From: Blautia parvula
GTDB lineage: Bacteria; Bacillota; Clostridia; Lachnospirales; Lachnospiraceae
DNA: 64,000 bases
Direction of reading: 5' to 3'
Assembly (NCBI RefSeq): GCF_020215665.1
Contig: NZ_CP084061.1
Location: 5,554,501-5,618,500 of the forward strand
The position numbers and the translations under genes are program-made. The notes beneath the pieces are model-generated. The model did not search any database, was not told the DNA's origin, and was given only the letters and a program-made list of their open reading frames with translations. This document shows positions 1 through 16,568 of this stretch, one piece after another (position 1 is the stretch's first letter; each line of letters opens with the position of its first letter).

Positions 1-287
1 ACCCCATTGCTTCCGTGCTTGCCACCATGTCTGTACATAATCTGACCGTGGATGATGAAGCACCGAAAAAATTCAAGATCATCATGGGTCTGCTGATCAC
101 AGCTACCGCCTATACGACCGTTGCAACAGATGGTGTCAATGCGGTAAAAGCCATGTATGTTATCCTGGGGGCGCCGATTATGCTGATTGTGGGAATCTGT
201 ATTTTTTCCTTCTTTAAGCAGGCAAAAGAGATCCAAAAATATCCCAATGACATGCTGCCGGAATCAGAAAAAAGTGATGAAGAATAA
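1..287 (+). CDS. BCCT-family betaine/carnitine/choline transporter, C-terminal end (5' partial)
   Basis: The reading frame is open from the window edge, so only about 95 C-terminal residues are visible. They hold two hydrophobic segments (roughly window codons 24-42 and 48-69) joined by a short loop containing Asp-Gly, then a charged tail rich in Glu and Asp. The pattern of a small-residue stretch, a Thr-Met-Ser segment, a polar loop, two helices and an acidic tail matches the last two helices of BCCT secondary carriers, which import quaternary amines such as glycine betaine, carnitine or choline. The gene ends 29 bp before the aconitase-X large subunit, so the two are probably co-transcribed. 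A substrate with an N-methyl group would fit the MttB-type methyltransferases downstream. Family assignment from a fragment is moderately secure; the substrate is unknown. Confidence 0.7.
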   Translation, partial: PIASVLATMSVHNLTVDDEAPKKFKIIMGLLITATAYTTVATDGVNAVKAMYVILGAPIMLIVGICIFSFFKQAKEIQKYPNDMLPESEKSDEE

Positions 288-316
288 AAATAGTATGAGA
301 AAAGAGAGGTATTCCT

Positions 317-1609
317 ATGAAATTAACACCATATGAACAGGACATGCTGGATGGAAAATTCGGCCGTTTTAAACAAATCGCATTGGAAAATGTTTTAAAA
401 TATGCCCGTGTCGTGGGCGCGGAAGAACTGGTTGAGATTACAAAATCCACACTGTATTTCGGGGCACATTCCTATCTGGAGACCTGCGATGCAGATACAT
501 ATGATGAGATATTTGCCAAAATGTATCTCTGTACAGATGAAAAAGTGGAATTAGGCGAATTTGAGAAGACCTGTTACTGTCAGACCTGTGTTGCGCCCTG
601 CGATCAATATGATTATAAAGTGACACATCTTCCGAAAGAATTGTTTGACAGAAATACAGAATATTTAGGACGTACACTGAAGGCAGGCTGCTGCATCGCC
701 GGTTCCTGCACGCCGTATCTGAACGGCTGGGTGCCGTTATTCGGAGAACATGTGGTGACATCTGAATCCAGCAATATCACCATGAGCAATTCTGCATTCG
801 GCGCAAGATGCAACGCAGACGGAGAAGAGGCGATCACATGGATATCCATCTGCGGCCGTGCTCCTAAATGGGGATTTTATCTTCAGGAAAACCGTTACGC
901 GGATACGGTATACCACATTGAGTGTAAATCAGAGACAAGATTTGACTGGGATATCATTGGCTACACAGTAGGGCGTATGCTGCCCTCCGCCGGAGTTCCT
1001 GTTTTGACCGGAGATTTCCACAGACCTACCCTGACCATGTTGAAACAGTGCTTTACCGCAATGGCTACTACGAGCGCATGTGAAATGTGCCATATTGTCG
1101 GTGTGACTCCCGAGGCGCGTTCCCTGGAAGATGCCCGAGGAAACAAACCGCTCAGAGGCGAATTTACCATCACACAGGAGGATTATGAGGAATCCCGCCG
1201 CCAGATCTGCAGTGCGGGAGAAGGCAAGATCAACTTTGTACTGATGGGATGCCCGCACTACAGCCTGGAGGATATCCAGCAGGTAGCAAATTATATAGAA
1301 GGGAAAAAGGTAGCGGAAGGTGTAGAACTCCATGTCTGGACAGATATGTCTACGCTTGCCATGGCAAAAGCAAGCGGTTTTGTAAAAACAATTGAGGAGG
1401 CAGGCGGAAATGTATTGTCAAGCAGCTGTGCTATGGTCATGGATCCTGCAGCTTTTGCGCATGTCACTGCCATGGTGACGGATTCCGGTAAACAGGGACA
1501 TTATATGCACTCCTGCTTTGGAGCAGGCAAGCATGTCCCGATCTATTATGGCGATATCTATCAATGTATTGACGCCGCTGCAGCAGGCTATTGGAAAGGA
1601 GAAGCATAA
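317..1609 (+). CDS. Aconitase X (AcnX) catalytic large subunit, two-subunit type
   Basis: This 430-residue protein belongs to the aconitase-X family (formerly DUF521), metal- or Fe-S-dependent dehydratases related to aconitase. Characterised members are bacterial cis-3-hydroxy-L-proline dehydratases and archaeal phosphomevalonate dehydratase. Visible family features are a Cys-rich stretch (Cys86, 88, 91, 95), a second cluster (Cys125, 126, 131), the block around residues 144-165 that reads GEH..TSESS..NSAFGARCN, a GCPHYS motif in the C-terminal half and a final HSCFGAG segment. Length fits a stand-alone large subunit; the swivel domain is a separate gene that overlaps the stop by one base. 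A good GAGAGG ribosome site precedes the ATG. In this context it may dehydrate a hydroxylated amino acid or betaine rather than mevalonate phosphate, but the sequence does not settle the substrate. Confidence 0.88.
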   Translation: MKLTPYEQDMLDGKFGRFKQIALENVLKYARVVGAEELVEITKSTLYFGAHSYLETCDADTYDEIFAKMYLCTDEKVELGEFEKTCYCQTCVAPCDQYDYKVTHLPKELFDRNTEYLGRTLKAGCCIAGSCTPYLNGWVPLFGEHVVTSESSNITMSNSAFGARCNADGEEAITWISICGRAPKWGFYLQENRYADTVYHIECKSETRFDWDIIGYTVGRMLPSAGVPVLTGDFHRPTLTMLKQCFTAMATTSACEMCHIVGVTPEARSLEDARGNKPLRGEFTITQEDYEESRRQICSAGEGKINFVLMGCPHYSLEDIQQVANYIEGKKVAEGVELHVWTDMSTLAMAKASGFVKTIEEAGGNVLSSSCAMVMDPAAFAHVTAMVTDSGKQGHYMHSCFGAGKHVPIYYGDIYQCIDAAAAGYWKGEA

Positions 1610-2028
1610 TGGAAAATACGATGATCAAAGGACGCGGAGCCTATGAAGGAGTCATGGAAGGAGAAGCGCTTGTTCTTCCTGACAGTGTACAGGGATGGGC
1701 CGGTTTAGATGAAAAAACGGGTATCATCATAGAGGAAGCAAACAGCAAATTCGGCGCGTATATCGGGGGAAAGATCCTGATCCTTCCCTGTGCTAAGGGA
1801 AGCAACGGGTGGGCCAGCCATTTTTATTCTGCCTCTGTGGCAGGCCACAAGCCCATCGCATGGGTCATTGAAAAACTGGATTCCCGCTGTGCTGCCTGTA
1901 TTGTGGAACTGGGAATACCCGCAGTTGTGGAGACTGAAACAGAGGCCTGCAAGATCATTCATGACGGAGACTACATTCGCGTGGACGGCAACAAGGGAAC
2001 CGTAGAAATATTAAAACGGGCAGAATAA
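1609..2028 (+). CDS. Aconitase X swivel-domain small subunit
   Basis: This 139-residue protein is the DUF126-type small subunit that completes the AcnX active site with the large subunit just upstream. The glycine-rich FGAYIGGKILILP segment (residues 44-56), followed by a KGS tripeptide (about residues 59-61), corresponds to the conserved swivel-domain loop where a serine faces the substrate. I chose the ATG at 1609, which overlaps the large-subunit stop (TAATG), because GGAAAGGAG sits 8-16 bases upstream; a TTG at 1591 in the same frame lies inside that ribosome site. The overlap implies translational coupling and a 1:1 complex. Beta-strand-rich content and length match stand-alone small subunits in bacteria and archaea. 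Confidence 0.87.
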   Translation: MENTMIKGRGAYEGVMEGEALVLPDSVQGWAGLDEKTGIIIEEANSKFGAYIGGKILILPCAKGSNGWASHFYSASVAGHKPIAWVIEKLDSRCAACIVELGIPAVVETETEACKIIHDGDYIRVDGNKGTVEILKRAE

Positions 2029-2124
2029 AATTTTTAACTTTCTGAATATTTAAAGAAAGACATCCATAACCTTATGATGAATGAAATAATGAATAAAGTA
2101 TTTCATGCATTGGAGGGATTATGG

Positions 2125-2811
2125 ATGTTTTTTTATTATGATGCCACATATCTTCTGGTCTTAGCAGGTGTAATACTCTGTGTCATAGCATCTGCAAATG
2201 TGAACCAGACCTACAAAAAGTACAGTACCGTGGGAAATGCCCGGCACATGACAGCGGAACAGGCAGCCAGGACCATACTGGACCGTGCGGGAATCAGCCA
2301 GGTGAAGATTGAGAGGGTCGGCGGAAATCTCACAGACCATTATGATCCCAGAAGCAAAGTACTGCGGCTGTCTGAAACCGTCTACGGCTCAGAGTCCGTG
2401 GCAGCCATCGGCGTGGCGGCCCACGAGTGCGGCCATGCGATCCAGGATGATGTGGGGTATGTACCGATCAAGATCAGAGGCGCGATCGTTCCGGTCGTAA
2501 GTCTTGGTTCTGCCCTCTGCTGGCCGCTGTTCCTCATCGGCCTTCTCATGGGAGCACCGGGTCTTGTAAACGCGGGTATTATTTTATTTTCTCTGGTGGT
2601 GGCCTTTCAGCTTGTTACCCTGCCTGTGGAATTCAACGCGTCCGGCAGAGCACTCAGGATTCTGGACGGTGCCGGAATCCTGGAGGGAAATGAACTGCAG
2701 GGGGCCGGGAAAGTTCTGCGCGCAGCAGCACTGACCTATGTGGCCTCGGCACTCTCATCTATCCTGCAGCTTTTACGTCTGGTACTGCTTTCCGGCAGAC
2801 GGAGAAATTAG
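2125..2811 (+). CDS. YugP-like membrane zinc metallopeptidase
   Basis: This 228-residue protein has an N-terminal membrane helix (residues 8-25), a soluble part with the zinc motif HECGH at residues 100-104, further helices at about 120-165 and a likely third zinc ligand at Glu169. This is the layout of the YugP (Mep2) family of integral-membrane neutral zinc peptidases, which are widespread in Firmicutes; their cellular substrates are poorly defined. I start it at ATG 2125 because TTGGAGGG lies 7 bases upstream. An ATG at 2074 has no comparable site. It sits between the AcnX genes and the PocR regulator but shows no evident link to the amine pathway, so it may be a passenger. The C-terminal tail is short and basic. 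Confidence 0.85.
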   Translation: MFFYYDATYLLVLAGVILCVIASANVNQTYKKYSTVGNARHMTAEQAARTILDRAGISQVKIERVGGNLTDHYDPRSKVLRLSETVYGSESVAAIGVAAHECGHAIQDDVGYVPIKIRGAIVPVVSLGSALCWPLFLIGLLMGAPGLVNAGIILFSLVVAFQLVTLPVEFNASGRALRILDGAGILEGNELQGAGKVLRAAALTYVASALSSILQLLRLVLLSGRRRN

Positions 2812-2936
2812 GCCGCTGCTGTTTACAGCCGTTGTCCCGCAGGGGGAGTTATGCACATACGCATAAAAATACCGAGTTTACTTTTTCTCCCTCCGGCAGT
2901 AGAATAAAGACAAGAGGAATAGTCCGGAGGAAGCAT

Positions 2937-4208
2937 ATGGCAGAGGGATACGAACATTCAGAGGAAAAAGATTACCTGGAAGAGATGCTTGACAATTTCG
3001 CAAAGGCAACAGAGCTGGGAATCATAGCAGTGAACACTTACGGGGAGGTCTTCCTTGCCAGTAAAGACTACTACGAGTGCGCATACTGCCGTCAGGTGCA
3101 GGACACGGAGGTGGGAAGAGCACGCTGCAGGCGTACCTATAAAAAGGCCTGCAGGCAGGCATTCCTGTGGAAAGAACCGTATTTTTTTGCCTGTCATGCC
3201 GGCCTTGTCATGTGGGCAGTCCCCATCTATGCGGATGGAACAGAAGTGGGAGCTGTCATGTGCGGACAAGTCCTTCTGTGGGAGCCGGATCATGTGTTCT
3301 GTCAGGACGCGGAAAAGTTCTGTCTGAGCGAAAAGGACCGCAGAGAGATGGAGCAGAAGGTAAAAAAGCTGCGCGTGATCTCCGCAGACCAGTGCCAGTC
3401 CTCTGCCAACCTTCTCCAGGTCATGATGCAGTATCTCTCAAAGACGCAGAACGCCATTTTCATGGACCAGAAGAATCTCATGAGCTGGCGTGATGCCATG
3501 ACCACCAGGATCGAAGAGAGAAAGAAGACACTGAAAAATGAAAAATTCGACTGGTCTGTCTATCTGAAAAGGGAAAAACGGTATCTCCAGTACGTCCGTA
3601 TGGCGGACAAAGAAAAGATACAGAACATGCTGGAAATGTTGTTCACGGATATCGAGATCTTGTGTTCCTACGACAAGGCTCTTGTGAAGTCAGCCCTGCA
3701 CGATTTCATGGCTGTGACCGCCAGAGCCATCGTGGAGGCAGGGGCGGACAGCGAAGTCGTCATGAATGGTGTAAAACATTACAGGCAGGACATGAAGCAT
3801 GTGGAAAACATTGAGGAAATGATGGAGATCACCTACCGGATGCTGAACCGGTGGTTTGACAGTATTTACCTTCTGGGGACAGATGACCATATCAGTGTCA
3901 TGAAAAATGTCAGGGATTACATAGAAGAGAATTACAATAGGAAGATTACCCTGGATGACATCTGCAGCCACGTATTTTTGAGCAGGTCTTATCTCTGTAC
4001 CTTATTCCGTCAGAAGACCGGAGGAACCATCAGCGATTATATCCTGAGGGTCAGGATCGAAAAGTCCATAGAGCTGATGGGGAACAGGGAACTGAGCCTG
4101 AAGGAGATCATGGAACAGTGTGGGTTTGAAAGCCAGAGCTACTATACAAAGACATTCCGAAGGCTGATAGGAGTCAATCCGGGACAGTACAGGAACAAAT
4201 TCTTATAG
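2937..4208 (+). CDS. PocR-domain AraC-family transcriptional regulator
   Basis: This 423-residue protein has an N-terminal PocR sensory domain (about residues 15-170) with the characteristic spaced cysteines (C..C then C, C and C within about 45 residues), a middle helical region and a C-terminal AraC double helix-turn-helix (about residues 325-423). PocR domains sense small hydrocarbon-derived ligands such as 1,2-propanediol and often control corrinoid-dependent pathways. The start at ATG 2937 is set by GGAGGA 6 bases upstream; an in-frame ATG at 2832 lacks a ribosome site. The stop lies 10 bp before the corrinoid protein gene, so regulator and corrinoid protein are probably one transcript. 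It likely activates the demethylation genes in response to substrate; that is inference from position. Confidence 0.88.
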   Translation: MAEGYEHSEEKDYLEEMLDNFAKATELGIIAVNTYGEVFLASKDYYECAYCRQVQDTEVGRARCRRTYKKACRQAFLWKEPYFFACHAGLVMWAVPIYADGTEVGAVMCGQVLLWEPDHVFCQDAEKFCLSEKDRREMEQKVKKLRVISADQCQSSANLLQVMMQYLSKTQNAIFMDQKNLMSWRDAMTTRIEERKKTLKNEKFDWSVYLKREKRYLQYVRMADKEKIQNMLEMLFTDIEILCSYDKALVKSALHDFMAVTARAIVEAGADSEVVMNGVKHYRQDMKHVENIEEMMEITYRMLNRWFDSIYLLGTDDHISVMKNVRDYIEENYNRKITLDDICSHVFLSRSYLCTLFRQKTGGTISDYILRVRIEKSIELMGNRELSLKEIMEQCGFESQSYYTKTFRRLIGVNPGQYRNKFL

Positions 4209-4218
4209 GAGATGCAGA

Positions 4219-4866
4219 ATGGATATATATGAAGAAATCAGGCGGAACCTTCTGGGCGGGAAGGCGGATGAGGTGGTAAATCTGATCAGAAAAGCCATTG
4301 CTGTCTGCTATCCTCCGGAGTCAGTGCTCAAAGAGGGACTGATTCTGGGCGTGGATACACTGGCGTACAAGTTCCGCAACAGTGAGGTCTGCGTGCCGGA
4401 GGCGCTGCGTGTGGCCCGTGCCTTAAATGCCGGCCTCAGATGTCTGACTCCCTATCTGGATCAAGGGGGTGCCAGGCAGTGCACTGCGGTCATCGGTACC
4501 GTGGAGGGGGATGTCCATGACATCGGAAAGAATCTGGTCAAGATATACCTCTCCACTCTGAATATAGATATGGTGGATCTGGGGGTGGATGTCAGCAAAG
4601 AGGAGTTTGTGGAGGCAGCAGTGGAACATGACGCCAGGCTTGTCATGGCGTCTGCACTTCTGCCCACAACGGTCTGTGAATTGAAGGGTGTCATAGAGGA
4701 GCTTAAGAAGGCAGGCATAAGGGACAAGGTCATTGTCTTCGTGGGAGGCCTGTCTGTCAGCAAAGAGTATGCGGAAGAGATAGGAGCGGATTATTATACC
4801 AGGGATGCCATTGAACTGCGGGACTTCCTGAACAAGAATCTGTCCAAACTCCTGAAAGAAATATAG
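4219..4866 (+). CDS. Corrinoid (B12-binding) methyl-carrier protein, MttC/MtbC-like
   Basis: This 215-residue protein shuttles a methyl group on cobalt between a substrate methyltransferase and a second methyltransferase acting on tetrahydrofolate or coenzyme M. The N-terminal helical cap covers residues 1-85. The cobalamin-binding Rossmann domain follows, with the base-off motif DVHDIG at 98-103 (axial His100), SALL at 145-148 and a GG pair at 176-177. These are the three classic B12-binding signatures. It lies directly upstream of an MttB-family methyltransferase, its probable partner, but is separated from it by a strong hairpin with a T-run (4902-4972). No corrinoid-activating RamA-like protein or methylcorrinoid:folate methyltransferase is present in the window. 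Confidence 0.93.
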   Translation: MDIYEEIRRNLLGGKADEVVNLIRKAIAVCYPPESVLKEGLILGVDTLAYKFRNSEVCVPEALRVARALNAGLRCLTPYLDQGGARQCTAVIGTVEGDVHDIGKNLVKIYLSTLNIDMVDLGVDVSKEEFVEAAVEHDARLVMASALLPTTVCELKGVIEELKKAGIRDKVIVFVGGLSVSKEYAEEIGADYYTRDAIELRDFLNKNLSKLLKEI

Positions 4867-4901
4867 AGCAATAAATAGCAAAATACAGCAAAAGTAACAG
4901 A

Positions 4902-4972: not shown

Positions 4973-4988
4973 ATGGAGGAGGTAAAAC

Positions 4989-6428
4989 ATGAGACCATCG
5001 ATCAAGTATTTAAGCGACGCGGAAGTAGTACGGGTACATGAAAAAGCATTGGAGATGCTGGAAGATCTGGGAATGAAATTTGAGGGGGCAGAGGCAAGAG
5101 AATACTTTGCAAAAGCAGGGGCAGAAGTGTCCGGACAAATCGTGAAAATACCGCGCAGCATCATCGAGGAAGGATTAAAGACGGTTCCAAAGCGAGAGGA
5201 ATTCGTTTTATATGGAAGGACACCGGATAAAGATGTGCATGTGAAAGACAGGGTGCCGTCACTGGCTGCCATGACCATGGCTACCCATGTGCTGGACCCG
5301 GAGACAGGACTGCGCAGGAAAGCTACAGACAGAGACCTTGCCCTGATCACAAGGATCATGGAAAAACTGGACACCGTGACCATTGCCAGTGCACTGGTCA
5401 CACCCCAGGATGTGCCCATGGCGGCATCCGACTGGTATACCTGGGCGACTTCCATTAAAAATACCACAAAACACATCACCGGCGGAGCTGTAGGAAAAGA
5501 GGGTGTGCGGGATGCCATCAAGATGGCCAGTCTGGCAGTGGGAAGCGAAGAAGAATTCCTGAAACGTCCTTTCATCTCCTTCTGGGTCCTGACTATGCCG
5601 CCGCTCCGAGTGGATGAAAATACATCCAATGTATTGATGGAGGCAGCCGTGCATAAGGTACCGTCAGTGATCAGCTCCGGCGGAATCCTGGGCATGACAT
5701 CCCCCATGTCCGTGGAGAGTGCACTGGTGCATACCCATGCGGAGACATTAGCCTGCATCGCACTGTCCCAGCTTGTCAATCCGGGGGCGCCTGTGATCTA
5801 TTCCAGCTATGTGCGCAGCATGGATATGAAGACCATGTGCATCAATATGTCCTCACCGGAGAGTATTATCATGAAGGTAGGCATGTCACAGATGGGAGAT
5901 TATGTTGGGCTGCCGACCAAGATGCCGGCCAATCTGCGGGACGGCAAGGTGCTGGATGCACAGGCCGGATTTGAGACCGGTATGGGCGGACTCGCCGGAG
6001 CACTGAGCTGTGATTTCATCGTTTCTATGCAGCTTGACATGGACCTTATGGTGGACTTTGCGGATATGATCTATTCCGATGAGTGCATGCAGATCCTGCA
6101 GAGAATGGCCCGTCCGCTCAGCTTTGACGATGAGACACTGGCCTATGACAATATGGAGGAAGTCGGCCCCGGCAACACATTCCTGGAGACTGACCACACC
6201 TTTGAACATTTCAAGGATGAAATATGGATGCCGAGATATATGGAGAGAGGCACCTGGGAGAACTGGGAGGCGAACGGAAGCCGTGATATCCGTGATATCT
6301 GTGCGGAAAAAGTGAAGGATATGCTGGAAGAGCTGCGTGACTATGAGATCCTGCCAAAAGATGTGAGGGATGCCATAGACGCTGTCGCTGCCGGTTCCTC
6401 GGAGAAGGCGAAGAACATCAAGCGTTAG
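4989..6428 (+). CDS. MttB-superfamily (trimethylamine methyltransferase-like) corrinoid methyltransferase, non-pyrrolysine
   Basis: This 479-residue protein has the length and motif pattern of the MttB superfamily, TIM-barrel enzymes that transfer a methyl group from a quaternary or tertiary amine to a corrinoid protein. The frame is continuous with no internal amber codon, so it is a pyrrolysine-free member. Such members act on glycine betaine, proline betaine, carnitine or butyrobetaine in Clostridia. Conserved-looking blocks include the ...LVNPGAPVIY... stretch near residues 258-267 and a glycine-rich GMGGLAGALS segment near 331-340. GGAGGAGG precedes the ATG by 5 bases. It is the closest partner to the upstream corrinoid protein. 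It is clearly divergent from the second family member at 8534, so the two probably act on different substrates or successive demethylations. Confidence 0.9.
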   Translation: MRPSIKYLSDAEVVRVHEKALEMLEDLGMKFEGAEAREYFAKAGAEVSGQIVKIPRSIIEEGLKTVPKREEFVLYGRTPDKDVHVKDRVPSLAAMTMATHVLDPETGLRRKATDRDLALITRIMEKLDTVTIASALVTPQDVPMAASDWYTWATSIKNTTKHITGGAVGKEGVRDAIKMASLAVGSEEEFLKRPFISFWVLTMPPLRVDENTSNVLMEAAVHKVPSVISSGGILGMTSPMSVESALVHTHAETLACIALSQLVNPGAPVIYSSYVRSMDMKTMCINMSSPESIIMKVGMSQMGDYVGLPTKMPANLRDGKVLDAQAGFETGMGGLAGALSCDFIVSMQLDMDLMVDFADMIYSDECMQILQRMARPLSFDDETLAYDNMEEVGPGNTFLETDHTFEHFKDEIWMPRYMERGTWENWEANGSRDIRDICAEKVKDMLEELRDYEILPKDVRDAIDAVAAGSSEKAKNIKR

Positions 6429-6444
6429 AGGGGAGAGGATGCTT

Positions 6445-7347
6445 ATGGATAAGACAAAAGGCAAGACCATAGGGCTGCTGGCCATGGTGGTAGTCGTCAC
6501 GATTTACGGTGTGTCTTATATTTCCAGGGCTGTAATCAGTGAATACCTTCCTACGGTAGTGATTCTGGTCATTCAGATGGCAGTCATGACGATTTTGTTT
6601 ACCGGATTTAATCTCGTGACCGGAAAGAATATGAAAGTGAAGAAAAAGGATTGGGGCATTATCATCCTGTCCGGCCTGGTCGGTACGACATTCTTCCATG
6701 GGTTCACTATTTTAAGTGTTACATCCATAGGGGCTACGGTTTCCTCCCTGCTTTTTGGATTTGCCGCTGTCTTTGCGCTGATCATGGAAATCGTTCTGTT
6801 TCACAGGAAGAAGACAAAGCTGGGAATCCTGGGTATATTGATCTCTCTTGTCGGTGTGTATATTCTGATGGGAGTGAAGATCGGGGATCTGATGGCAACC
6901 AATTTCAAGGGATATGCGCTGTGTCTTTTGAGCATCATTTCCTGGGTAGTCTATTGTTTCCTGACAGACAAGATATCGGATGGATATGAGAAGACCGTAT
7001 TGCTGAACTACCAGGCACTTGTGGGGGCTGTCACTACGCTGCCGTTTTTATTCTTCTATCATGTGGAGCCGTCCGTCCTTGCAAAGCCGTCGGTGTTCAT
7101 GAACCTGATCGTGCTGGGAGTATTTAATTCTACGATTGCTTATTTTTTGAATATATTTGCGATCAAAAGGATCGGTGTACTGCTGTCAAATCTGATGATG
7201 GATTTTCTGCCGGTAGTGACCATCGTGATTTCACTGGTACTATACAGTACAATACCTACTGCGAACCAGATCATCGGTGGAATCATCATTCTGGTCTCTG
7301 TGTTTATGCTGGATAAAGACCAGAGGAATCTGGACGCGCAGGCGTAA
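6445..7347 (+). CDS. EamA/DMT-family transporter
   Basis: This 300-residue protein consists almost entirely of hydrophobic helices, about ten in two five-helix halves, as in EamA drug/metabolite transporters. Basic residues cluster after helix 2 (KKKDWG) and in the inter-helix loops, as expected. It follows the methyltransferase by 16 bp and is therefore probably in the same operon. Family members export or import amino acids and small metabolites; here it may export a demethylated product or take up the substrate. I prefer ATG 6445 because the GGGGAG ribosome site at 6430-6435 is nine bases away; ATG 6439 would be too close. A bidirectional terminator follows the gene. Confidence 0.85.
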   Translation: MDKTKGKTIGLLAMVVVVTIYGVSYISRAVISEYLPTVVILVIQMAVMTILFTGFNLVTGKNMKVKKKDWGIIILSGLVGTTFFHGFTILSVTSIGATVSSLLFGFAAVFALIMEIVLFHRKKTKLGILGILISLVGVYILMGVKIGDLMATNFKGYALCLLSIISWVVYCFLTDKISDGYEKTVLLNYQALVGAVTTLPFLFFYHVEPSVLAKPSVFMNLIVLGVFNSTIAYFLNIFAIKRIGVLLSNLMMDFLPVVTIVISLVLYSTIPTANQIIGGIIILVSVFMLDKDQRNLDAQA

Positions 7348-7454: not shown

Positions 7455-8228
7455 CTACCGCATGACATATCCAAGAGTCGCGGACAGCCTTCTTACAGCA
7501 GCGATAAGTGTTTCACTTATTGCATGCTCCTCCTCCTCGGTGAGCGTGGTGCCGCTGATACTGATCGCACCCAACGGCGTATTGGTATAATTCATTACAA
7601 GAGCGCCCACACAGAAGATGTTATATTCATTTTCTTCCCTATCCAGCGCATAATGCCGCTGTTTCACTTCACTGATATCCTGAAGTAAAGCGTGGACATC
7701 CGTAATGGTGTGTTCTGTGAGACGCTTTACATTAAATTTTTCCCATTTCTCAATAATCTCATGGTTTGAATATGTGGACAAAATCGCCTTGCCGGCACTT
7801 GTGCAGTACAGAGGAGAACGCCGTCCAACGTTTGTATAGACGGAGAAGGAAGGTGCAGTCTGTCCAATGCTCTGTACACATAAAAGCTGATTGTTATCCT
7901 CAACAGAGAATTGTGCAACCCGCCCTGTCTCTCGGCTCAAATCGGCAAGTGTGGAGTTGATCAGTGAAATCTGATCCAGATTCTGTACGGCGTTGATACC
8001 CACTTCATATGCCTTTAATGTGAGACTGTATTCATTGTTCGGTCTCTTCTCAATATAACCATTTTCCACCAGCGTATATACTAAACGTGACAGGGAAGCC
8101 TTGCTGATGTTCATCTTTTCATGTAATTCAGCTAATGTCATATTGCCTGAACGGGATATTGTTTCGAGAATTTGGAAAGCACGGTCTATAGCCTGAATCG
8201 TTTCCATTTTCTGTATTGCCTTGCTCAA
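7455..8228 (-). CDS. IclR-family transcriptional regulator
   Basis: This 257-residue protein has an N-terminal winged helix-turn-helix (about residues 10-75; ASLSRLVYTL is the recognition helix region) and a C-terminal IclR ligand domain (about 80-250) with the typical SAGKAIL and LGAISISG blocks. It is transcribed divergently from the second methyltransferase and probably controls that promoter and its own. The start is TTG at 8228: GGAGG lies 7 bases upstream on the minus strand, while the first internal ATG is codon 8 and has no ribosome site. IclR proteins usually bind small acids or aromatic ligands; an intermediate of the amine pathway is a plausible ligand. Its end converges on a strong bidirectional terminator. 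Confidence 0.92.
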   Translation of the reverse strand: MSKAIQKMETIQAIDRAFQILETISRSGNMTLAELHEKMNISKASLSRLVYTLVENGYIEKRPNNEYSLTLKAYEVGINAVQNLDQISLINSTLADLSRETGRVAQFSVEDNNQLLCVQSIGQTAPSFSVYTNVGRRSPLYCTSAGKAILSTYSNHEIIEKWEKFNVKRLTEHTITDVHALLQDISEVKQRHYALDREENEYNIFCVGALVMNYTNTPLGAISISGTTLTEEEEHAISETLIAAVRRLSATLGYVMR

Positions 8229-10127: not shown

Positions 10128-10194
10128 TATGCAAATGGAGTCGGAAATCAAATATTAAAAAAATAAATGAAATATACCGAAAGGAGATTGAATC

Positions 10195-10398
10195 ATGGCA
10201 AAAGCAAAAGCAACTGCGGACACCAGCTTATGCAAGGGCTGCCGCCTGTGTGTAGGGGTATGTCCGGTGAAAGCCATTGAGCCTCTCACTGAGATCAACA
10301 AAAAAGGATACGAGATCATCAGAATCGATGAAGAAACCTGTATCGGATGCGGACAGTGCTATAAGATCTGTCCCGATTATGTATTTACCATTGAGTAG
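10195..10398 (+). CDS. 2x[4Fe-4S] ferredoxin subunit (delta) of 2-oxoacid:ferredoxin oxidoreductase
   Basis: This 67-residue protein has two complete CxxCxxCxxxC motifs: Cys13/16/19/23 followed by Pro, and Cys49/52/55/59 followed by Pro. This is the electron-carrying delta subunit found as a separate gene in four-subunit archaeal-type and clostridial oxidoreductases (Vor/Kor/Por). It passes electrons from the TPP centre to free ferredoxin. AAAGGAG precedes the ATG by seven bases. It is the first gene of a tightly spaced cluster with the alpha, beta and gamma subunits. The basic, Ala-rich first 10 residues are typical of these subunits. Confidence 0.93.
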   Translation: MAKAKATADTSLCKGCRLCVGVCPVKAIEPLTEINKKGYEIIRIDEETCIGCGQCYKICPDYVFTIE

Positions 10399-10413
10399 AA
10401 GGAGGCAGAGAAG

Positions 10414-11499
10414 ATGAGTAAAGGATTTCAATTAATGAAAGGCAATGAGGCGATCGCTGAGGCCGCTCTCCGTGCAGGATGCCGCTTCTATGCAGGTTAC
10501 CCTATCACGCCCCAGAGTGAGATACTGGAATACATGTCAGCCAACATGGCGGACCGCGGGGGCGTCTTCATCCAGGGGGAAAGCGAGATTGCAAGTATGA
10601 GTATGCTGTGGGGAGCTGCAGCATGCGGTGAGCGTGTAATGACAAGCTCTTCCGGTCCGGGGTATGATCTGAAGCAGGAAGGGATCTCCTATCTTTCCTC
10701 CTACAATCTTCCGGCGGTCATCATAGATGTCATGCGCTACGGTGTAGGCGACGGTGAGATCACAGAGGGTCAGGATTCCTACTGGCTGGCGACCAGGGGC
10801 GGCGGCCATGGAGATTCCAGGCAGCTTGTCCTCACACCGGGTTCCGTGCAGGAATGCGCAGAGCTTACATACGAAGCTTTTGACCTGGCTGAAAAATACC
10901 GCACTGTGGTGATCATCTTAAGCGATGGCGGAATCAGCCAGATGATAGAAAAGGTAGTCCTTCCCGAACCGAAGGAACACGACAGAAGTAAATTTGACTG
11001 GGCGATCAAGGGTGAGAAGAAAAAAGATGAACCGAAAGTAAAGGTCACCAATCTGGACCGTTCCATGGATTACAGTGCATACGATGCGATGGTACGGAAA
11101 AAATTCTCCGATATGTATCACAATGAGCAGCGCTGGGAGAATTTCATGACAGAGGATGCCGAGCTTATCCTTGTTGCCTATGGAATCTCTTCGAGAATAT
11201 GCAAGTCAGCAGTGAGAAGAGCCAGAGAAGCAGGCATGAAACTGGGCCTCATCCGTCCCATCACGGCATGGCCTTATCCGAAAAAAGCCTTTGAAAATCT
11301 CCCGGAGGGATTAAAAGGGCTGGTAACTGTTGAGATGAGCCTCTCCTCCCAGATGGGACTGGATATCCGTCTGGCCACAGAGTATAAGGTTCCCCTCTAC
11401 GGTTATCTGACATCAAAATATGTTCCCACAACTCAGGGAATCGTAGACTTCTGCAAAGGGGTACTGGCAGGAGATGTTAAGGAACTGGAGGTATATTGA
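10414..11499 (+). CDS. 2-oxoacid:ferredoxin oxidoreductase alpha subunit (VorB/KorA-like)
   Basis: This 361-residue protein carries the pyrimidine-binding half of a thiamine-diphosphate oxidoreductase that converts a 2-oxoacid, CoA and oxidised ferredoxin to acyl-CoA, CO2 and reduced ferredoxin. Family marks are the GNEAIAEAAL...YPITPQSEILEY start (conserved Tyr-Pro-Ile-Thr-Pro-Ser/Gln region near residues 29-36), the TSSSGPGYDLKQEG segment near 72-85 and the C-terminal transketolase-like domain. The subunit architecture and length favour the branched-chain or 2-oxoglutarate class over pyruvate oxidoreductase. GGAGG precedes the ATG; it follows the ferredoxin subunit by 15 bp. The 2-oxoacid substrate cannot be read from sequence. 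Confidence 0.92.
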   Translation: MSKGFQLMKGNEAIAEAALRAGCRFYAGYPITPQSEILEYMSANMADRGGVFIQGESEIASMSMLWGAAACGERVMTSSSGPGYDLKQEGISYLSSYNLPAVIIDVMRYGVGDGEITEGQDSYWLATRGGGHGDSRQLVLTPGSVQECAELTYEAFDLAEKYRTVVIILSDGGISQMIEKVVLPEPKEHDRSKFDWAIKGEKKKDEPKVKVTNLDRSMDYSAYDAMVRKKFSDMYHNEQRWENFMTEDAELILVAYGISSRICKSAVRRAREAGMKLGLIRPITAWPYPKKAFENLPEGLKGLVTVEMSLSSQMGLDIRLATEYKVPLYGYLTSKYVPTTQGIVDFCKGVLAGDVKELEVY

Positions 11500-11500
11500 T

Positions 11501-12244
11501 ATGGCAGCTAAAATGACAAAACCGGAAATGATCAACCAGCAGGTGGGATGGTGTCCCGGCTGCGGCCATGGTATCATACAGCGCCTGATCGCAGAGTGCT
11601 GCGAGGAACTGGGGCTTTGTGAAAAGACCATCCAGGTCGTGGATATTGCCTGTGCTTACTGGTCTATTGACACTCTGAACTGTGACGGCATCGCAGGTCC
11701 TCACGGGCGCTGCGCGGCAGTGGCCACAGCAATCAAAAAGGTTTATCCGGATTCCAATGTCTACGTCCATGCAGGGGATGGGTGCTCTTATGTGATCGGC
11801 CTTTCCGAGACCTGCTACGCGGCCCAGAGGAATGTTCCAATAACTATGATCGTGGTAAATAACGGAATATTCGGCATGACCGGCGGTCAGATGTGCCCGG
11901 CGACCACTCTGGTGGGAGACAAGACAGTCAGCAGTAAAAAAGGAAGAGATGACAAGGTGGCAGGAGAGCCGTTCGATATGCTGAACATCCTTCAGAATTA
12001 TAAAATCGCATATGCGGCTAGAGGTTCCCTGTGTGATCCTAAACACATTGATCAGACGAAGAAGATGTTAAAGAAAGGCTTTGAGAACCAGAGGGACAAG
12101 AAAGGATTTTCCATTATAGAGATCCTTTCCCCATGTCCGACTAACTGGAAATTATCGCCGGCAGATGCCATGAAGAAGATGAAAGAGGAAAATGAAAAGG
12201 TATTCCCGGTGAAAGTATATGTAGATAATGGGGGTGACGAATAA
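11501..12244 (+). CDS. 2-oxoacid:ferredoxin oxidoreductase beta subunit (TPP-binding)
   Basis: This 247-residue protein holds the thiamine-diphosphate-binding domain. Near the N terminus is the WCPGCGHG motif seen in all such beta subunits. The TPP motif runs from GDG (in HAGDGCSYVIG) to the paired asparagines VVNNGIFGMTGGQ about 25 residues later. ATG 11501 is chosen because CTGGAGG is 8-14 bases upstream and the gene then begins one base after the alpha-subunit stop; an in-frame ATG at 11474 lies inside the alpha gene. It forms the catalytic core with the alpha subunit. The short length without a cluster-binding C-terminal extension agrees with a separate ferredoxin subunit. Confidence 0.93.
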   Translation: MAAKMTKPEMINQQVGWCPGCGHGIIQRLIAECCEELGLCEKTIQVVDIACAYWSIDTLNCDGIAGPHGRCAAVATAIKKVYPDSNVYVHAGDGCSYVIGLSETCYAAQRNVPITMIVVNNGIFGMTGGQMCPATTLVGDKTVSSKKGRDDKVAGEPFDMLNILQNYKIAYAARGSLCDPKHIDQTKKMLKKGFENQRDKKGFSIIEILSPCPTNWKLSPADAMKKMKEENEKVFPVKVYVDNGGDE

Positions 12245-12783
12245 TGGCTGATATTATGTTTGCAGGTATCGGTGGTCAGGGCGTATTGACAGCCGGAAAG
12301 ATCCTGATCGAGATCGCGGCAGAGCACGGCAAAAATGTGAGCTGGACCAGCGAGTATTCTGCGGAGATGCGCGGAGGCATTGCCCTCTGCCGTGTGGTGG
12401 TATCCGATGAGGAGATAGGAAGTCCTTACCCGGATTACCTGGATGTGCTGTGCTGCATGAATGAGGACGCGTATGACAAATATGTGTCTGATATGCGGGA
12501 AGGAGGCTGCGTGATCATCAACCGCTCCGTATTCGGAGAAAAGCAGTTCCCGGAAAATGTGAAGGTATATGGTGTGGATGCTATGGAAATTGCCTCAGAA
12601 CTGGAGAACCAGAGAGGCCTGAACCTGGTAGTCCTGGGGGCCATGATCAGGGCTACCGGCATGATGGATGTAAATGAGTTTGCAGATACACTGGAAGCTT
12701 ATTTCAATAAAAAAGGCAAAGCAAGTGACAAAAACGTGCAGTGCTTTATGATGGGATATGAAAAAGCGGAGAAGATGCAGTGA
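12244..12783 (+). CDS. 2-oxoacid:ferredoxin oxidoreductase gamma subunit
   Basis: This 179-residue protein is the CoA-side gamma subunit. It opens with the family hallmark FAGIGGQGVLTAGKIL (residues 6-21), a nucleotide-binding-like glycine loop, followed by the SEYSAEMRGG block (residues 39-48). The ATG overlaps the beta-subunit stop by one base (TAATG), indicating translational coupling within the delta-alpha-beta-gamma operon. The remainder has the alternating strand/helix pattern expected of the POR gamma domain. It is followed after 10 bp by the ADP-forming acyl-CoA synthetase, which would consume the acyl-CoA made by this complex. Confidence 0.93.
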   Translation: MADIMFAGIGGQGVLTAGKILIEIAAEHGKNVSWTSEYSAEMRGGIALCRVVVSDEEIGSPYPDYLDVLCCMNEDAYDKYVSDMREGGCVIINRSVFGEKQFPENVKVYGVDAMEIASELENQRGLNLVVLGAMIRATGMMDVNEFADTLEAYFNKKGKASDKNVQCFMMGYEKAEKMQ

Positions 12784-12793
12784 GGGCTGATAT

Positions 12794-14875
12794 ATGGATT
12801 TGAGAAAATTATTGAAACCAAGGACAGTTGCCATCGTAGGTGCCAGTGAAAAAGCGGGATTCGGCGGTGATACCACCCGCAATTACCTCAAATTCTCCGG
12901 GAATCTGGATCATCTGTATCTGGTGAATCCGGGAAGAGAGGAGATCTTCGGCCACAAGGCATACCACTCCCTGTCAGAGATAGAGGGAGATGTAGACCTG
13001 GTCATTCTGTGTACCCCCCAGAAGACTATACTTTCCTTATTACGGGAAGCGGCAGGGAAGAACTGCGGCGGAGCCGTGGTCTTTGCCAGCGGATACAGTG
13101 AGACGGGAGCGGAGGGGAAAGAGCTTCAAAGAGAGCTGGTCCGGGAAGCCGACCGCCTGGGAATCGCGGTCATGGGGCCGAACTGTGCGGGGTTTGCCAA
13201 TTTCATTGACGGTATCTTTGCGTTTGCCTTTTTGGTGGAGGAACGGGACCGTTCCGGCAATATCGGTATGATTTCCCAAAGCGGACAGATCGTGCTTGGA
13301 GGGCTGGACAGTCCAAATATGGGATTCTCCCATGTGATCTCCTCCGGCAACTCCTGTAATGTGAAGGTGGAAGATTATCTGGACTTTCTGGTGGAGGATG
13401 AGGATACAAAAGTCGTGGCTGCATACATAGAGGGCGTGTCAAAACCGGAGAAGCTGGTGGAGACATTCCGCAAAGCGGCAATAAAGAAAAAACCGGTTGT
13501 GGTATTGAAGACAGGCCGTTCCGGCAAAGCGCAGGAGCTGGCAAAATCCCACACAGGCTCCCTTTCCGGGGCAGATAAAGTCTTGAGAGCTGTATTTAAG
13601 CGGTACGGTGTCATAGAGGCCAGGGATCTGGAAGAATTATGCGGTCTGGCTGCTGCATTTTCCTGGCTGGAAGAGCTTCCTAAGGGGGAGAGATGCGTAT
13701 TCATGAATGTTTCCGGCGGCGAAGCCGGAGTCATGGCAGACCTGACAGACGAGTTCGGAATCCGCCTGGCAGAATATCATCCGGAGACGAAAGCATATCT
13801 TCAGACTCTTGTTCCGGATTATGGTTCCGTAAATAATCCTTTTGATATGACAGCGGGAATCGGATACAACACCCCGGTCATGGTTCGGGCCATGGAGGCC
13901 ATCTCAAAAGACGATCATGTGGATGCCATCTGTATTGCCTATACCATCACGCCGGAGATCTGGGATGACACTATCTCCCACATGGTGGAGGCGGTATCCA
14001 TTGCCAAAGAGAATCCGGATATGAAACCGGTATTCTGGATTCCGTTCATTGAGCACACAAGGCATCAGGCGAGTGCGGATATCCTGCAAAAAGCAGGCGT
14101 GCCTCTGCTCCCGTCAGGGCGCTACGGATGCCGAATCTTAAAGCAGGTGCTGGATTTTGCCAATTTTGAATACCAGGATACAGAAGCGGCGGTTCCCGAA
14201 AGAACACATGGGCCTTCCCAAGGACTCAGCGAGTACGAGAGCCTGAATTACCTGAAAGCACACGGCGTTACGATTCCGCCCCAGGCTGTGGCTGCCACAG
14301 CAGATGAGGCGGTAAAGGCAGCCGGGAATCTGGGATATCCCCTGTCCGTGAAGATACATTCTGCTGATATTCAGCATAAGTCTGATGTGGGCGGTGTGAA
14401 ATTAAATATCAGGGATGAGGCAGAGCTTCGCCTGGCATTTGAGACGGTGATGGATAACTGCAGGAAAAACGCGCCGGATGCGAAGCTGGAAGGTGTACTG
14501 CTAAAACCCATGCTCAAAGCCGGAGTGGAGATGATCATCGGTGTGAACAACGATAAGGATTTTGGCCCTATGATCATGGTGGGAATGGGCGGTGTGTTCG
14601 TGGAGCTGTTCAAGGACGTGCAGCTCGCACCGGCGCCGCTCACCAGGGAGCAGGCAAAAAAAATGTTGGAGAGCCTGAACTCTTATCCCCTGCTGAATGG
14701 CTACCGCGGTAATCCGGTATGTGATAAGGAAGCGCTGGCGGATATGCTGGTGAGCATCAGCGAGATGGCAGCTAAGGGAAAGGACAGCATAAAAGAACTG
14801 GATATAAACCCGGTGTTTGTGACGGAAGAGGGCGTAGCCATTGCAGACGCACTGCTTGTACAGTATATAGATTGA
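12794..14875 (+). CDS. ADP-forming acyl-CoA synthetase (fused alpha-beta)
   Basis: This 693-residue protein interconverts acyl-CoA + ADP + Pi and acid + CoA + ATP; in fermenting anaerobes it runs towards ATP. Domain order is a CoA-binding Rossmann domain (about 1-125), a succinyl-CoA-ligase-like region (about 150-440) and a C-terminal ATP-grasp domain (about 480-693). The phosphorylatable histidine is His253 in the KSHTGSLSG motif, and the second conserved His lies in the HKSDVGGV block of the ATP-grasp part. It is co-directional with and 10 bp after the oxidoreductase, so the pair makes a substrate-level phosphorylation module: 2-oxoacid to acyl-CoA to acid with one ATP. Acyl specificity cannot be read. 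Confidence 0.92.
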   Translation: MDLRKLLKPRTVAIVGASEKAGFGGDTTRNYLKFSGNLDHLYLVNPGREEIFGHKAYHSLSEIEGDVDLVILCTPQKTILSLLREAAGKNCGGAVVFASGYSETGAEGKELQRELVREADRLGIAVMGPNCAGFANFIDGIFAFAFLVEERDRSGNIGMISQSGQIVLGGLDSPNMGFSHVISSGNSCNVKVEDYLDFLVEDEDTKVVAAYIEGVSKPEKLVETFRKAAIKKKPVVVLKTGRSGKAQELAKSHTGSLSGADKVLRAVFKRYGVIEARDLEELCGLAAAFSWLEELPKGERCVFMNVSGGEAGVMADLTDEFGIRLAEYHPETKAYLQTLVPDYGSVNNPFDMTAGIGYNTPVMVRAMEAISKDDHVDAICIAYTITPEIWDDTISHMVEAVSIAKENPDMKPVFWIPFIEHTRHQASADILQKAGVPLLPSGRYGCRILKQVLDFANFEYQDTEAAVPERTHGPSQGLSEYESLNYLKAHGVTIPPQAVAATADEAVKAAGNLGYPLSVKIHSADIQHKSDVGGVKLNIRDEAELRLAFETVMDNCRKNAPDAKLEGVLLKPMLKAGVEMIIGVNNDKDFGPMIMVGMGGVFVELFKDVQLAPAPLTREQAKKMLESLNSYPLLNGYRGNPVCDKEALADMLVSISEMAAKGKDSIKELDINPVFVTEEGVAIADALLVQYID

Positions 14876-14899
14876 TAAAAAATAAGCGGAGGAAAGAAT

Positions 14900-15280
14900 A
14901 TGGAACTGAAAGAATTAGTGAGCATGGAAGCATCCCCGGCACTGGGGCCTTACTGTCACGGAAGAAAATACGGCAATATGATCATTACCTCAGGCCAGAT
15001 TCCTCTTACAAAAGACGGGGAATATGTATATGAGATCAAAGCGGCCACAACGCTGGTGCTGAACAACCTGCTCAGCATTGTAGAAGCGGGCGGCGGATGC
15101 AGGGAAAGTGTGGCCCGTGTTGACGTGTACATCAACAGTCTGGACGATTTTGCTGCCATCAATGAGGCCTATGCGGAGTTTTTCGGCAGCCACAGACCCA
15201 CCAGAGTGTGCGTACAGGTGGAGGCGCTCCCGGAAAATGTCCCTCTGGAAGCATCCATGATCGCTTTTGCTGAGGAATAG
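14900..15280 (+). CDS. RidA-family (YjgF) enamine/imine deaminase
   Basis: This 126-residue protein matches the RidA family, trimeric enzymes that hydrolyse reactive 2-enamines and imines to 2-oxoacids and ammonia. The substrate-carboxylate-binding arginine is Arg102 in PTRVCVQV, and Glu117 in the PLEASMIA motif matches the conserved glutamate. Length is typical. It follows the acyl-CoA synthetase by 24 bp with an AGCGGAGG site. In this locus an AcnX dehydratase could generate an enamine, RidA would release the 2-oxoacid and the ferredoxin-linked oxidoreductase would burn it; this order is an inference from gene content. General detoxification is the alternative role. Confidence 0.92.
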   Translation: MELKELVSMEASPALGPYCHGRKYGNMIITSGQIPLTKDGEYVYEIKAATTLVLNNLLSIVEAGGGCRESVARVDVYINSLDDFAAINEAYAEFFGSHRPTRVCVQVEALPENVPLEASMIAFAEE

Positions 15281-15320
15281 ATCTGTATACACATTCCAGA
15301 GAACATAAAGGAGATTGATA

Positions 15321-16568
15321 ATGAATAGAATCGCATTAAAGGGCGGCCTGCTCATTGACGGCACAGGGGCCGCGGCAGTAAAGGACAGCCTGGTGCTGGT
15401 GGACAACGGTAAGATCACATATGCCGGCCCGGGAAAAGCGGTACCTAAGGGATATCATATAACAGATATTTCCGGTAAGACAGTGATGCCGGGATTGATC
15501 GATGCACATCTGCATTTTTCCGGCAATCTCACAGACAATGACAGTGACTGGGTGCTGGAGGACAATATCCAGAAAGCGGTGGTGGCTGTACAGCAGTCAC
15601 ATGAGTGCCTGGAAACAGGTCTGACGACCGTGGGGGAAATCTCAAGATTCGGCATCCATATCCGGAATATGATAGAGGCGGGTGTCATGAAGGGGCCGAG
15701 AGTAGTGGCCTCAGGCCTTGGATTCTGCGCCACATGCAGCCACGGGGATTCTCATAAGGTATCTATAGAGATGAACAGAGAATCTCATCCGTGGGCAGAG
15801 TGTGTGGACGGGCCTTGGGATCTTCGCAAAGCCGTGCGTCGGCGTCTCAGGGAAAACCCGGATGCTATAAAAATCTGGGCTACGGGAGGCGGTATCTGGC
15901 GCTGGGAGACGGCTATGGACCAGCATTATACCATGGAGGAAGTGCAGGCAGTTGTGGATGAGTGTAATATGCGTCACATTCCTGTCTGGTCCCATTGTTT
16001 TGGAAGCGCGTACAATTCTGCTAAGGCAGGAGTTCATTTGATTATACATGGACAGTCACTGGATGACGAGACACTGGATATTATGGCGGAAAAAAATATT
16101 GCTTTTTGTCCAACCATCAACTTTATGCCAGCATGGTTTGATACGTTCCCTCCAAAATACGATCCAAAGCTCCACGACAAATATCCGGGAAATTCAGTGA
16201 AAGAGAAAGAATTAAACCGTATTTATGATAATTTGAGAAAAGCCAGCGCCAAGGGTATTATTCTCACAATCGGTTCGGATTCTTTTAACTCTCAGATGAC
16301 GCCTTATGGAGAGACGACTGTCGGGGAATTGTACGCATTCGTAGAGAAAGCGGGAATCAGCGAGATGGATGCCATTGTGGCCGCTACCATCAACGGTGCA
16401 AGAGCCCTTCGTGTGGGAGATATTACAGGCTCTCTGGAGGAGGGCAAAAGCGCTGACCTGCTGGTTATAGACGGCAATCCCCTGGAAGATATCAGGACCA
16501 TAGCGGCAGAGCATATGGATGTGATCATGAAAGAAGGAGATTTTGTAAAAAACCGCCTGGAAAAGTAA
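15321..16568 (+). CDS. Metal-dependent amidohydrolase (imidazolonepropionase/prolidase-like)
   Basis: This 415-residue protein has the full amidohydrolase-superfamily metal site: His63-x-His65, the Lys184 expected to be carbamylated, His225, His243 and Asp320. The layout resembles imidazolonepropionase-related and Xaa-Pro-type amidohydrolases, which cleave cyclic amides or N-acyl bonds. ATG 15321 follows AAAGGAG by seven bases; a TTG at 15315 is too close to that site. It ends the long operon and is followed by a strong terminator. It may open a lactam or hydantoin-like ring or release an N-acyl group from the imported substrate. Substrate is unknown. Two nearby cysteines (Cys136, Cys139) are not part of the canonical site. 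Confidence 0.85.
   Translation: MNRIALKGGLLIDGTGAAAVKDSLVLVDNGKITYAGPGKAVPKGYHITDISGKTVMPGLIDAHLHFSGNLTDNDSDWVLEDNIQKAVVAVQQSHECLETGLTTVGEISRFGIHIRNMIEAGVMKGPRVVASGLGFCATCSHGDSHKVSIEMNRESHPWAECVDGPWDLRKAVRRRLRENPDAIKIWATGGGIWRWETAMDQHYTMEEVQAVVDECNMRHIPVWSHCFGSAYNSAKAGVHLIIHGQSLDDETLDIMAEKNIAFCPTINFMPAWFDTFPPKYDPKLHDKYPGNSVKEKELNRIYDNLRKASAKGIILTIGSDSFNSQMTPYGETTVGELYAFVEKAGISEMDAIVAATINGARALRVGDITGSLEEGKSADLLVIDGNPLEDIRTIAAEHMDVIMKEGDFVKNRLEK

Follow-up and report, generated by a model that had tools for sequence, protein, structure and literature searches.

Why should an enzyme of the aconitase X (AcnX) superfamily of dehydratases be encoded among methyltransferases of the MttB superfamily? 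The question is raised by a locus of Blautia parvula that occupies the first 16,568 nucleotides of the stretch we analyzed (64,000 nucleotides of contig NZ_CP084061.1, positions 5,554,501 to 5,618,500; hereafter the window), in a genome of 6.25 Mb on one contig. An earlier note on this DNA had read the genes as a possible single route that demethylates, dehydrates and oxidizes a methylated hydroxy-amino acid. Using open reading frames (ORFs) together with Pfam and NCBIfam profile searches at curated cut-offs, we recovered every gene that it named: a betaine/carnitine/choline-type (BCCT) transporter, AcnX, a corrinoid protein, two MttB homologues, the deaminase RidA, an amidohydrolase (AHS), a 2-oxoacid:ferredoxin oxidoreductase (Vor), an acyl-CoA ligase and regulators. 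We also found two genes beyond its list, encoding a zinc metallopeptidase and an EamA-family transporter (Table 1).

The earlier note had named the co-occurrence of AcnX, MttB and Vor genes in other genomes as a check on its proposal. We scanned genome contigs with an alignment of five AcnX sequences, which gave 77 pattern matches and 30 loci (cited below by L numbers, as genomes are by G numbers). An MttB match is found in 17 of these loci (in L053 as a fragment of 112 residues at the locus edge), RidA in 12, an aromatic-amino-acid-lyase homologue in 10 and BCCT in 6; these counts are lower bounds because several contigs are short. A core of AcnX large subunit (AcnX-L), AcnX small subunit (AcnX-S), BCCT and MttB is common to loci from Clostridia (L034), Tissierellales (L035) and Spirochaetes (L036). 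In L035 the core is accompanied by RidA, DUF1904 and a corrinoid protein, and genes for a RACo-type activator and CobW lie close by.

To place this linkage on a phylogeny, we built an AcnX tree of 71 rows, having dropped short and duplicate rows, the AcnXb copy of our own genome among them, and recorded for each row whether an MttB lies no more than about 10 kb away (it does for 26 and not for 40, with 5 set aside where contigs end too soon). MttB lies near 23 of the 27 scorable rows in one AcnX clade (support 90/91) versus 3 of the 39 outside it (Fisher p about 1e-10, relatedness ignored), in a comparison for which clade rows came mostly from a search with window-like AcnX and outside rows mostly from a PF04412 sample, and in which the window and G255, a genome of the same genus, are near-duplicates and L042 is counted twice. 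The trait changes state 6 times on the tree, and the linkage spans several phyla. Within the PF04412 sample (398 genomes of the phylum, 32 with AcnX, 37 genes), 7 of the 37 genes have an MttB, among the matches listed, no further than 10 kb away: 4 of 5 clade members versus 3 of 32 others, a group that includes four genes neither fetched nor placed on the tree. Seven genomes with AcnX of another type and 3-27 MttB genes each (G679, G984, G790, G656, G688, G694 and G716) show no linkage within 10 kb on the same contig. The recurrence that the earlier note proposed to look for thus holds across phyla for AcnX and MttB. For Vor it extends to distant homologues (22-28%) within 10 kb of AcnX in L034, L035 and L053, a weak point because such enzymes are common, and to VorD and part of VorB in L033.

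Our literature search, in which coverage of subscription journals was mostly missing, found no paper linking AcnX (or DUF521) to MttB and nothing on point for betonicine or hydroxyproline betaine/stachydrine in anaerobes, and the term 'aconitase' was not found in PMC12155760. The pairing of AcnX with MttB seems to be undescribed. AcnX and MttB probably serve one pathway.

How are the genes arranged, and is the arrangement kept? The locus had been described as one stretch with tight spacing. Gaps are indeed short (-26 to 122 bp inside units, the exception being 224 bp between MttB2 and VorD), but there are two units, which flank a divergent IclR gene, rather than one continuous stretch. Unit A consists of BCCT, AcnX-L, AcnX-S, the zinc peptidase, a PocR-AraC regulator, the corrinoid protein, MttB1 and EamA; unit B, of MttB2, VorD, VorB, VorA, VorC, the ADP-forming acyl-CoA ligase, RidA and AHS. 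IclR and MttB2 are on opposite strands, 305 bp apart. In G255, the 16 genes that run from AcnX-L through AHS are all present in window order, at 88.6-98.8% protein identity and a dN/dS of 0.008-0.068; because of this colinearity and these ratios, the gene array is not a product of chance. G255 carries two additional ORFs: one, IS110-like by eye, separates BCCT from AcnX, and the other, of 619 aa, separates EamA from IclR.

This precise locus is seldom met with. Of 20 genomes of the genus, 7 have an AcnX (E up to 1e-30), with the window type only in our own genome and G255, and a sample of 250 genomes of the family holds the window type once, in our own genome (next best 44-45%). Also within the genus, G251 has AcnX and MttB together on a contig of 6807 bases, and 'Candidatus Blautia avicola' contributes one of the AcnX loci (L040, DWUY01000186.1). 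The closest named relative (76%) is L033, a UBA11957 contig from another member of the Lachnospiraceae, which brings together within 12 kb an IclR, VorD, part of VorB, part of MttB2, AHS (83%), RidA (82%) and part of a BCCT, along with two LysR, a BCCT, a TIM-barrel protein, AcnX-L and AcnX-S.

Both MttB proteins are encoded by open frames with no in-frame amber codon, exceed the PF06253 cut-off and fall short of the TIGR02369 cut-off for pyrrolysine-type trimethylamine MttB (Table 1), which confirms them as non-pyrrolysine homologues. They are 24% identical to each other, and MttB1 was compared with enzymes of known substrate through PDB matches only. On a 36-row MttB tree (the MttB of L045 left out, those of L033 and L053 being fragments), a clade of 18 rows (100/100) contains the MttB found beside AcnX in L034-L036 and in most AcnXb loci; the MttB of AcnX loci L044, L050, L060 and G917 fall outside it. 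The corrinoid protein carries the sequence DVHDIG, an instance of DxHxxG, which we take to be the corrinoid-protein motif. Elsewhere in the genome we find 2 CdhD-family matches and 3 RACo-family matches (PF14574), one of the latter with an in-frame TAG and none in the locus, so that RACo is available from outside it; these matches fit an acetogen background. No MtqA-like methyl-corrinoid:tetrahydrofolate methyltransferase is encoded in units A and B, the genome as a whole not having been searched for MtqA-like genes. The quaternary-amine:tetrahydrofolate systems of the gut acetogen Eubacterium limosum (MtyB/MtqC/MtqA; MtcB, MtpB) likewise join a non-pyrrolysine MttB to a cognate corrinoid protein (PMC8604678). 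The window differs from them in that possible genes of carbon-skeleton breakdown (AcnX, RidA, VOR and ligase) adjoin.

If AcnX makes an enamine, then RidA would be expected beside it. The window RidA passes its family model by a small excess and retains the catalytic Arg (Table 1). This Arg, which has a catalytic role in RidA, is present in 15 of 15 distinct copies inspected, the copies of L045, L047 and L060 not being among them, and RidA is found near AcnX in different AcnX clades. At L054:9983-13968, AcnX-L, AcnX-S, RidA, 2-keto-3-deoxy-6-phosphogluconate (KDPG) aldolase and PfkB kinase follow each other in order, which reads as an amino sugar acid being dehydrated and deaminated, without pyridoxal phosphate (PLP), to yield a 2-keto-3-deoxy acid. 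The RidA pattern supports, without proving, an AcnX that acts on acyclic β-hydroxy-α-amino acids.

Downstream of MttB2, the four-subunit oxidoreductase is recognized as a 2-oxoisovalerate:ferredoxin oxidoreductase (VOR) by NF005507, with VorD assigned by eye. The ligase has the CoA-binding, Succ_CoA_lig and ATP-grasp_5 domains of an ADP-forming acyl-CoA synthetase and reaches none of the substrate-specific equivalogs (best 469.5 versus 1200). In the fermentation of amino acids through VOR and ADP-forming acyl-CoA synthetase, a 2-oxoacid is converted to acyl-CoA and then to acid and ATP. The same module would be encoded here, with the differences that MttB2 precedes it, RidA follows it and the unit holds no aminotransferase.

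These observations are compatible with a model in which the locus is a catabolic island that degrades a β-hydroxylated quaternary ammonium compound by a single route, a model to which we give slightly less than even weight. We infer its reactions, their order and the substrate class from gene content. After uptake of the betaine by BCCT, MttB1 and MttB2 would move methyl groups onto the corrinoid protein, from which they would enter the Wood-Ljungdahl pathway of the organism. AcnX would then strip the β-hydroxyl and the α-hydrogen from the (partly) demethylated β-hydroxy-α-amino acid to give an enamine, which RidA would hydrolyze to a 2-oxoacid and (methyl)amine. VorDBAC would convert the 2-oxoacid to acyl-CoA, CO2 and reduced ferredoxin, and the ADP-forming ligase would turn acyl-CoA into acid and ATP. 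The amidohydrolase and the zinc peptidase may free the substrate from a conjugate. The logic of this route, as first proposed, remains plausible in light of the AcnX-MttB linkage, the presence of RidA at 12 of 30 loci and the presence of most unit-B genes with AcnX in L033.

Its extension to all the genes fares less well, and several observations weigh against it. Both MttB1 and MttB2 of the window fall outside the 18-row MttB clade, and a Pfam scan of units A and B found no corrinoid reactivator or methyl-acceptor gene. No acyl-CoA ligase match was obtained in any of the 30 other AcnX loci. RidA is a labile neighbour of AcnX, because its presence (18 of 71 tree rows, by our own labels) changes 11 times on the AcnX tree. 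Even within the AcnX clade, L037, L038 and L039 lack MttB, and in L083 the nearest MttB is 10.9 kb away. When 392 genomes of the order were searched for MttB2 orthologues at a strict threshold (E up to 1e-120), our own genome was the only one returned. In L033 the truncated VorB and MttB2 frames overlap (L033:1790-2730), a junction that is likely an assembly chimera or a deletion, and we saw there neither a ligase nor a link from AcnX to VorA or VorC. With AHS as the anchor for unit B, orthologues (69-72%) were found in 4 other genomes of 397; none has an AcnX, MttB, RidA or VOR match beside AHS, and 3 of the 4 adjoin a presumed amino-acid permease (by eye).

The same evidence bears on the rival explanation that survives best, in which the units are independent operons: unit A would degrade a β-hydroxy betaine through AcnX and MttB1, and unit B would demethylate another amine through MttB2 and oxidize a 2-oxoacid derived from amino acids or peptides through VOR and the ligase. 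The separation of the units by a divergent IclR and 305 bp, their different regulators, the low identity and different lineages of the two MttB proteins, the AHS orthologues that stand apart from AcnX and the missing ligase at other AcnX loci all favour it. It is opposed by the retention of both units together in G255, by the mixture of IclR, VorD, VorB, AHS, RidA, BCCT and AcnX within 12 kb of L033, and by the position in unit B of RidA, which is a frequent AcnX neighbour elsewhere. We consider two independent operons possible, although rather doubtful; that units A and B serve one pathway is, in our judgement, evenly balanced.

What, then, is the substrate of AcnX? The pocket of AcnX lies between its two subunits. 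The window protein clearly belongs to the superfamily (PF04412 cut-off 31.5; PF01989 61.7 bits, cut-off 27). Taking landmark residues from PMC8184944, we find equivalents of catalytic residues 70, 292, 293, 530 and 534 (Ser, Glu, Ser, Lys and Tyr), of cluster cysteines 273/449/508, with the three Cys in the type II pattern, and of the pocket residue Trp35. In hydroxyproline-acting AcnX, Asp203 and Thr72 bind the proline nitrogen (PMC8184944). Both equivalents are absent from the window protein. AcnX-S keeps the catalytic Ser and the Trp and has Asn/Gly at the equivalents of Cys71/Thr72; the Asp203 position depends on the alignment (Tyr47 by MAFFT, Gly49 by phmmer, Phe48 by eye with the following Gly matched), and the stretch LYFGAHSY at this region has no acidic residue. 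NF051439, a model of the fused hydroxyproline enzyme, gives 189.7 bits for AcnX-L versus a cut-off of 700, and 30.8 bits for AcnX-S. By these residues and this score the window AcnX is excluded from the hydroxyproline dehydratases, and hydroxyproline betaine, the example that had been offered for the route, is weakened as a candidate.

With the characterized hydroxyproline AcnX the window protein shares its superfamily, the catalytic Ser/Glu/Lys/Tyr, a two-subunit layout as in type IIa and the expected enamine product; it differs in the two nitrogen-binding residues and in a third cluster Cys at the type II position. A Pfam scan of units A and B found no match to the proline racemase or pyrroline-carboxylate reductase families. 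Landmark residues also exclude archaeal phosphomevalonate dehydratase (type IIb), the unrelated activity that the earlier note had raised against its own proposal. This enzyme likewise has separate large and small subunits and the three-Cys cluster pattern, but its Ala47/Ser50/Asn79 (large subunit) are Tyr/Ala/Glu in the window, the first two being alignment-dependent in a loop, its Leu27/Val64 (small subunit) are Trp/Gly, and the context in the window is catabolic. The window AcnX appears to fit the description of subclasses IIc-IIf, which are functionally unassigned in PMC8184944. A pocket that has lost both nitrogen ligands and kept the Trp would be well matched to a nitrogen that bears methyl groups. 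The substrate that we favour, at somewhat less than even odds, is an α-(N-methyl)amino β-hydroxy acid. 4-Hydroxyproline betaine would not be a direct substrate, because AcnX needs an α-hydrogen and a β-hydroxyl relative to the carboxylate; candidates compatible with this chemistry are 3-hydroxyproline betaine, β-hydroxy-trimethyllysine, serine or threonine betaines, and carnitine.

The last of these suggests a different route, which we consider unlikely. MttB would make norcarnitine from a β-hydroxy-γ-betaine, AcnX would dehydrate it without CoA, and tautomerization and RidA would yield dimethylamine and succinic semialdehyde. BCCT carriers and MttB both figure in the known use of carnitine, and DUF1904, which we presume to be linked to tautomerases, lies near AcnX in L035 and L037. 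An acyclic β-hydroxy acid is a substrate of type II AcnX (PMC8184944), and for E. limosum the gut fate of demethylated carnitine (norcarnitine) and γ-butyrobetaine products is called unknown (PMC8604678). This route leaves the 2-oxoacid:ferredoxin oxidoreductase unexplained, and its vinylogous enamine is speculative.

A hydroxyproline-type substrate after all (cis-3-hydroxy-L-proline, its N-methyl form or its betaine) is still harder to credit. The superfamily, Trp35 and the catalytic set are shared, the product 2-oxo-5-aminovalerate could feed VOR, and a betaine-specific variant might lose exactly Asp203 and Thr72; set against this are the missing ligands, the low NF051439 score and the xDGCx(Y) signature, which other rows of the AcnX tree (L070, L072-L075) do keep. 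Equally improbable is a role for AcnX in dehydrating a sugar acid or amino sugar acid that has nothing to do with methylation, its place near methyltransferases being due to chance, an idea suggested by the KDPG aldolase and kinase genes of L054, by the TRAP carrier and Fe-S serine dehydratase near AcnX in L037 and by a UxuA/GntP operon downstream in the window, and countered by the 23 of 27 clade AcnX near MttB, by the sister-clade position and different pocket signature (LCCGST) of L054, and by the lack of GntP in the roughly 500 bases past AHS in G255.

The proposal of a single route from betaine to acid can be put in a wider form, which we advance tentatively and with more doubt than confidence. 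Corrinoid-dependent N-demethylation and an AcnX dehydratase would form a widespread, hitherto undescribed anaerobic route that jointly degrades β-hydroxylated betaines, the methyl groups entering acetogenesis and the 2-oxoacid freed by RidA being oxidized for ATP. AcnX would here replace a PLP-dependent dehydratase on N-substituted amino acids, which are unable to form a PLP aldimine, and its clade would constitute a new family of enzymes, adapted to N-methylated substrates through loss of the two residues that bind the hydroxyproline nitrogen, with the pocket Trp kept.

Table 1. Features of the AcnX-MttB locus, in positions of the window.
Feature	Position	Strand	Evidence and remarks
BCCT betaine/carnitine/choline-type transporter, C-terminal part	3..287	+	PF02028 36.1 bits; gene start lies 5' of window
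Aconitase X large subunit (AcnX-L), uncharacterized clade	317..1609	+	PF04412 330.5 bits
Aconitase X swivel (small) subunit (AcnX-S)	1591..2028	+	PF01989; 19 bp overlap with AcnX-L
Neutral zinc metallopeptidase (Zn_peptidase_2)	2074..2811	+	PF04298 305.9 bits
PocR sensory domain - AraC regulator	2832..4208	+	PF10114, PF00165
Corrinoid (methyl-carrier) protein, DVHDIG motif	4219..4866	+	PF02607, PF02310
MttB1, non-pyrrolysine MttB-superfamily methyltransferase	4989..6428	+	PF06253 315.9 bits; TIGR02369 345.8 vs cut-off 525
EamA-family transporter, final gene of unit A	6439..7347	+	PF00892
IclR-family regulator, divergent from MttB2	7455..8228	-	PF01614, PF09339
MttB2, non-pyrrolysine MttB-superfamily methyltransferase	8534..9970	+	PF06253 306.3 bits; TIGR02369 252.6 vs cut-off 525
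VorD, ferredoxin-like subunit	10195..10398	+	67-aa ORF, two CxxCxxC clusters, assigned by eye
VorB, 2-oxoacid:ferredoxin oxidoreductase subunit	10414..11499	+	NF005507 416.1 vs cut-off 399
VorA, thiamine pyrophosphate-binding subunit	11474..12244	+	PF02775
VorC, gamma subunit	12244..12783	+	PF01558
ADP-forming acyl-CoA synthetase (ACD)	12794..14875	+	PF13607, PF13549, PF13380
RidA enamine/imine deaminase	14900..15280	+	TIGR00004 107.3 vs cut-off 106.25; P-T-R motif with catalytic Arg
COG1228-type amidohydrolase (AHS)	15315..16568	+	PF01979; last unit-B gene colinear in G255

Some features at the margins of the locus complete its description. The last 94 codons of BCCT are inside the window (full gene, L005:15220-16788); the gene ends 29 bp before the start of AcnX-L, and a LysR-type ORF (by eye) is divergent from it. 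The solved structures nearest to AHS are 2qs8 and 3mtw (Xaa-Pro dipeptidase, Arg carboxypeptidase). No Rfam family matched window positions 1-20000 at gathering thresholds. Further downstream, at 16778-25572, the window encodes a GntP permease, UxuA mannonate dehydratase, a periplasmic sugar-binding protein, a histidine kinase and an AraC-type response regulator; the GntP/UxuA genes are probably outside the system, because GntP was not seen in the bases fetched past AHS in G255.

Other AcnX loci also have neighbours of interest. Our own genome has a second AcnX-MttB locus (L007, C1:1704000-1723000) with two AcnX pairs, two MttB and RidA, together with an Ldh_2 dehydrogenase, an SSF carrier and two aromatic-amino-acid-lyase homologues that lack the triad of the 4-methylideneimidazole-5-one (MIO) cofactor; it possibly serves catabolism of a histidine- or aromatic-type betaine. 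Among 12 aligned lyase homologues from AcnX loci (one counted twice, as L021 and L046 are the same contig, and the L060 homologue not included), 0 have the Ala-Ser-Gly triad of MIO at the usual place. One of these lyases, from L042 (Dethiosulfatibacter aminovorans), is closely homologous to an ergothionase of known structure (6s7j, 634 bits); its gene adjoins BCCT and runs convergently toward two AcnX pairs and an MttB. Because trimethylamine leaves readily, ergothionase does not need MIO. The L042 protein adds to the betaine theme of AcnX loci. Another AcnX clade, AcnXc, is found near histidine-pathway genes (L098, L099 and L108): L098 has a HutU match over the cut-off and a ProV-type betaine ATP-binding cassette (ABC) ATPase, L108 has HutI and a carbamoylase-family protein (358.5 with the ErtE model, below its cut-off of 520), and L098 and L099 carry MttB too. 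In L053, from a member of the Spirochaetaceae, an octopine-dehydrogenase-like gene (11711-12898) lies directly 3' of AcnX-S.

For the AcnX clade, which matches neither characterized AcnX activity, these results provide a hypothesis of function. The pairing of MttB with AcnX, which RidA often joins, also supplies a testable answer to the question of what becomes of some betaines after demethylation. If the proposal is true, the range of betaines that gut bacteria might steer away from trimethylamine formation would become larger.

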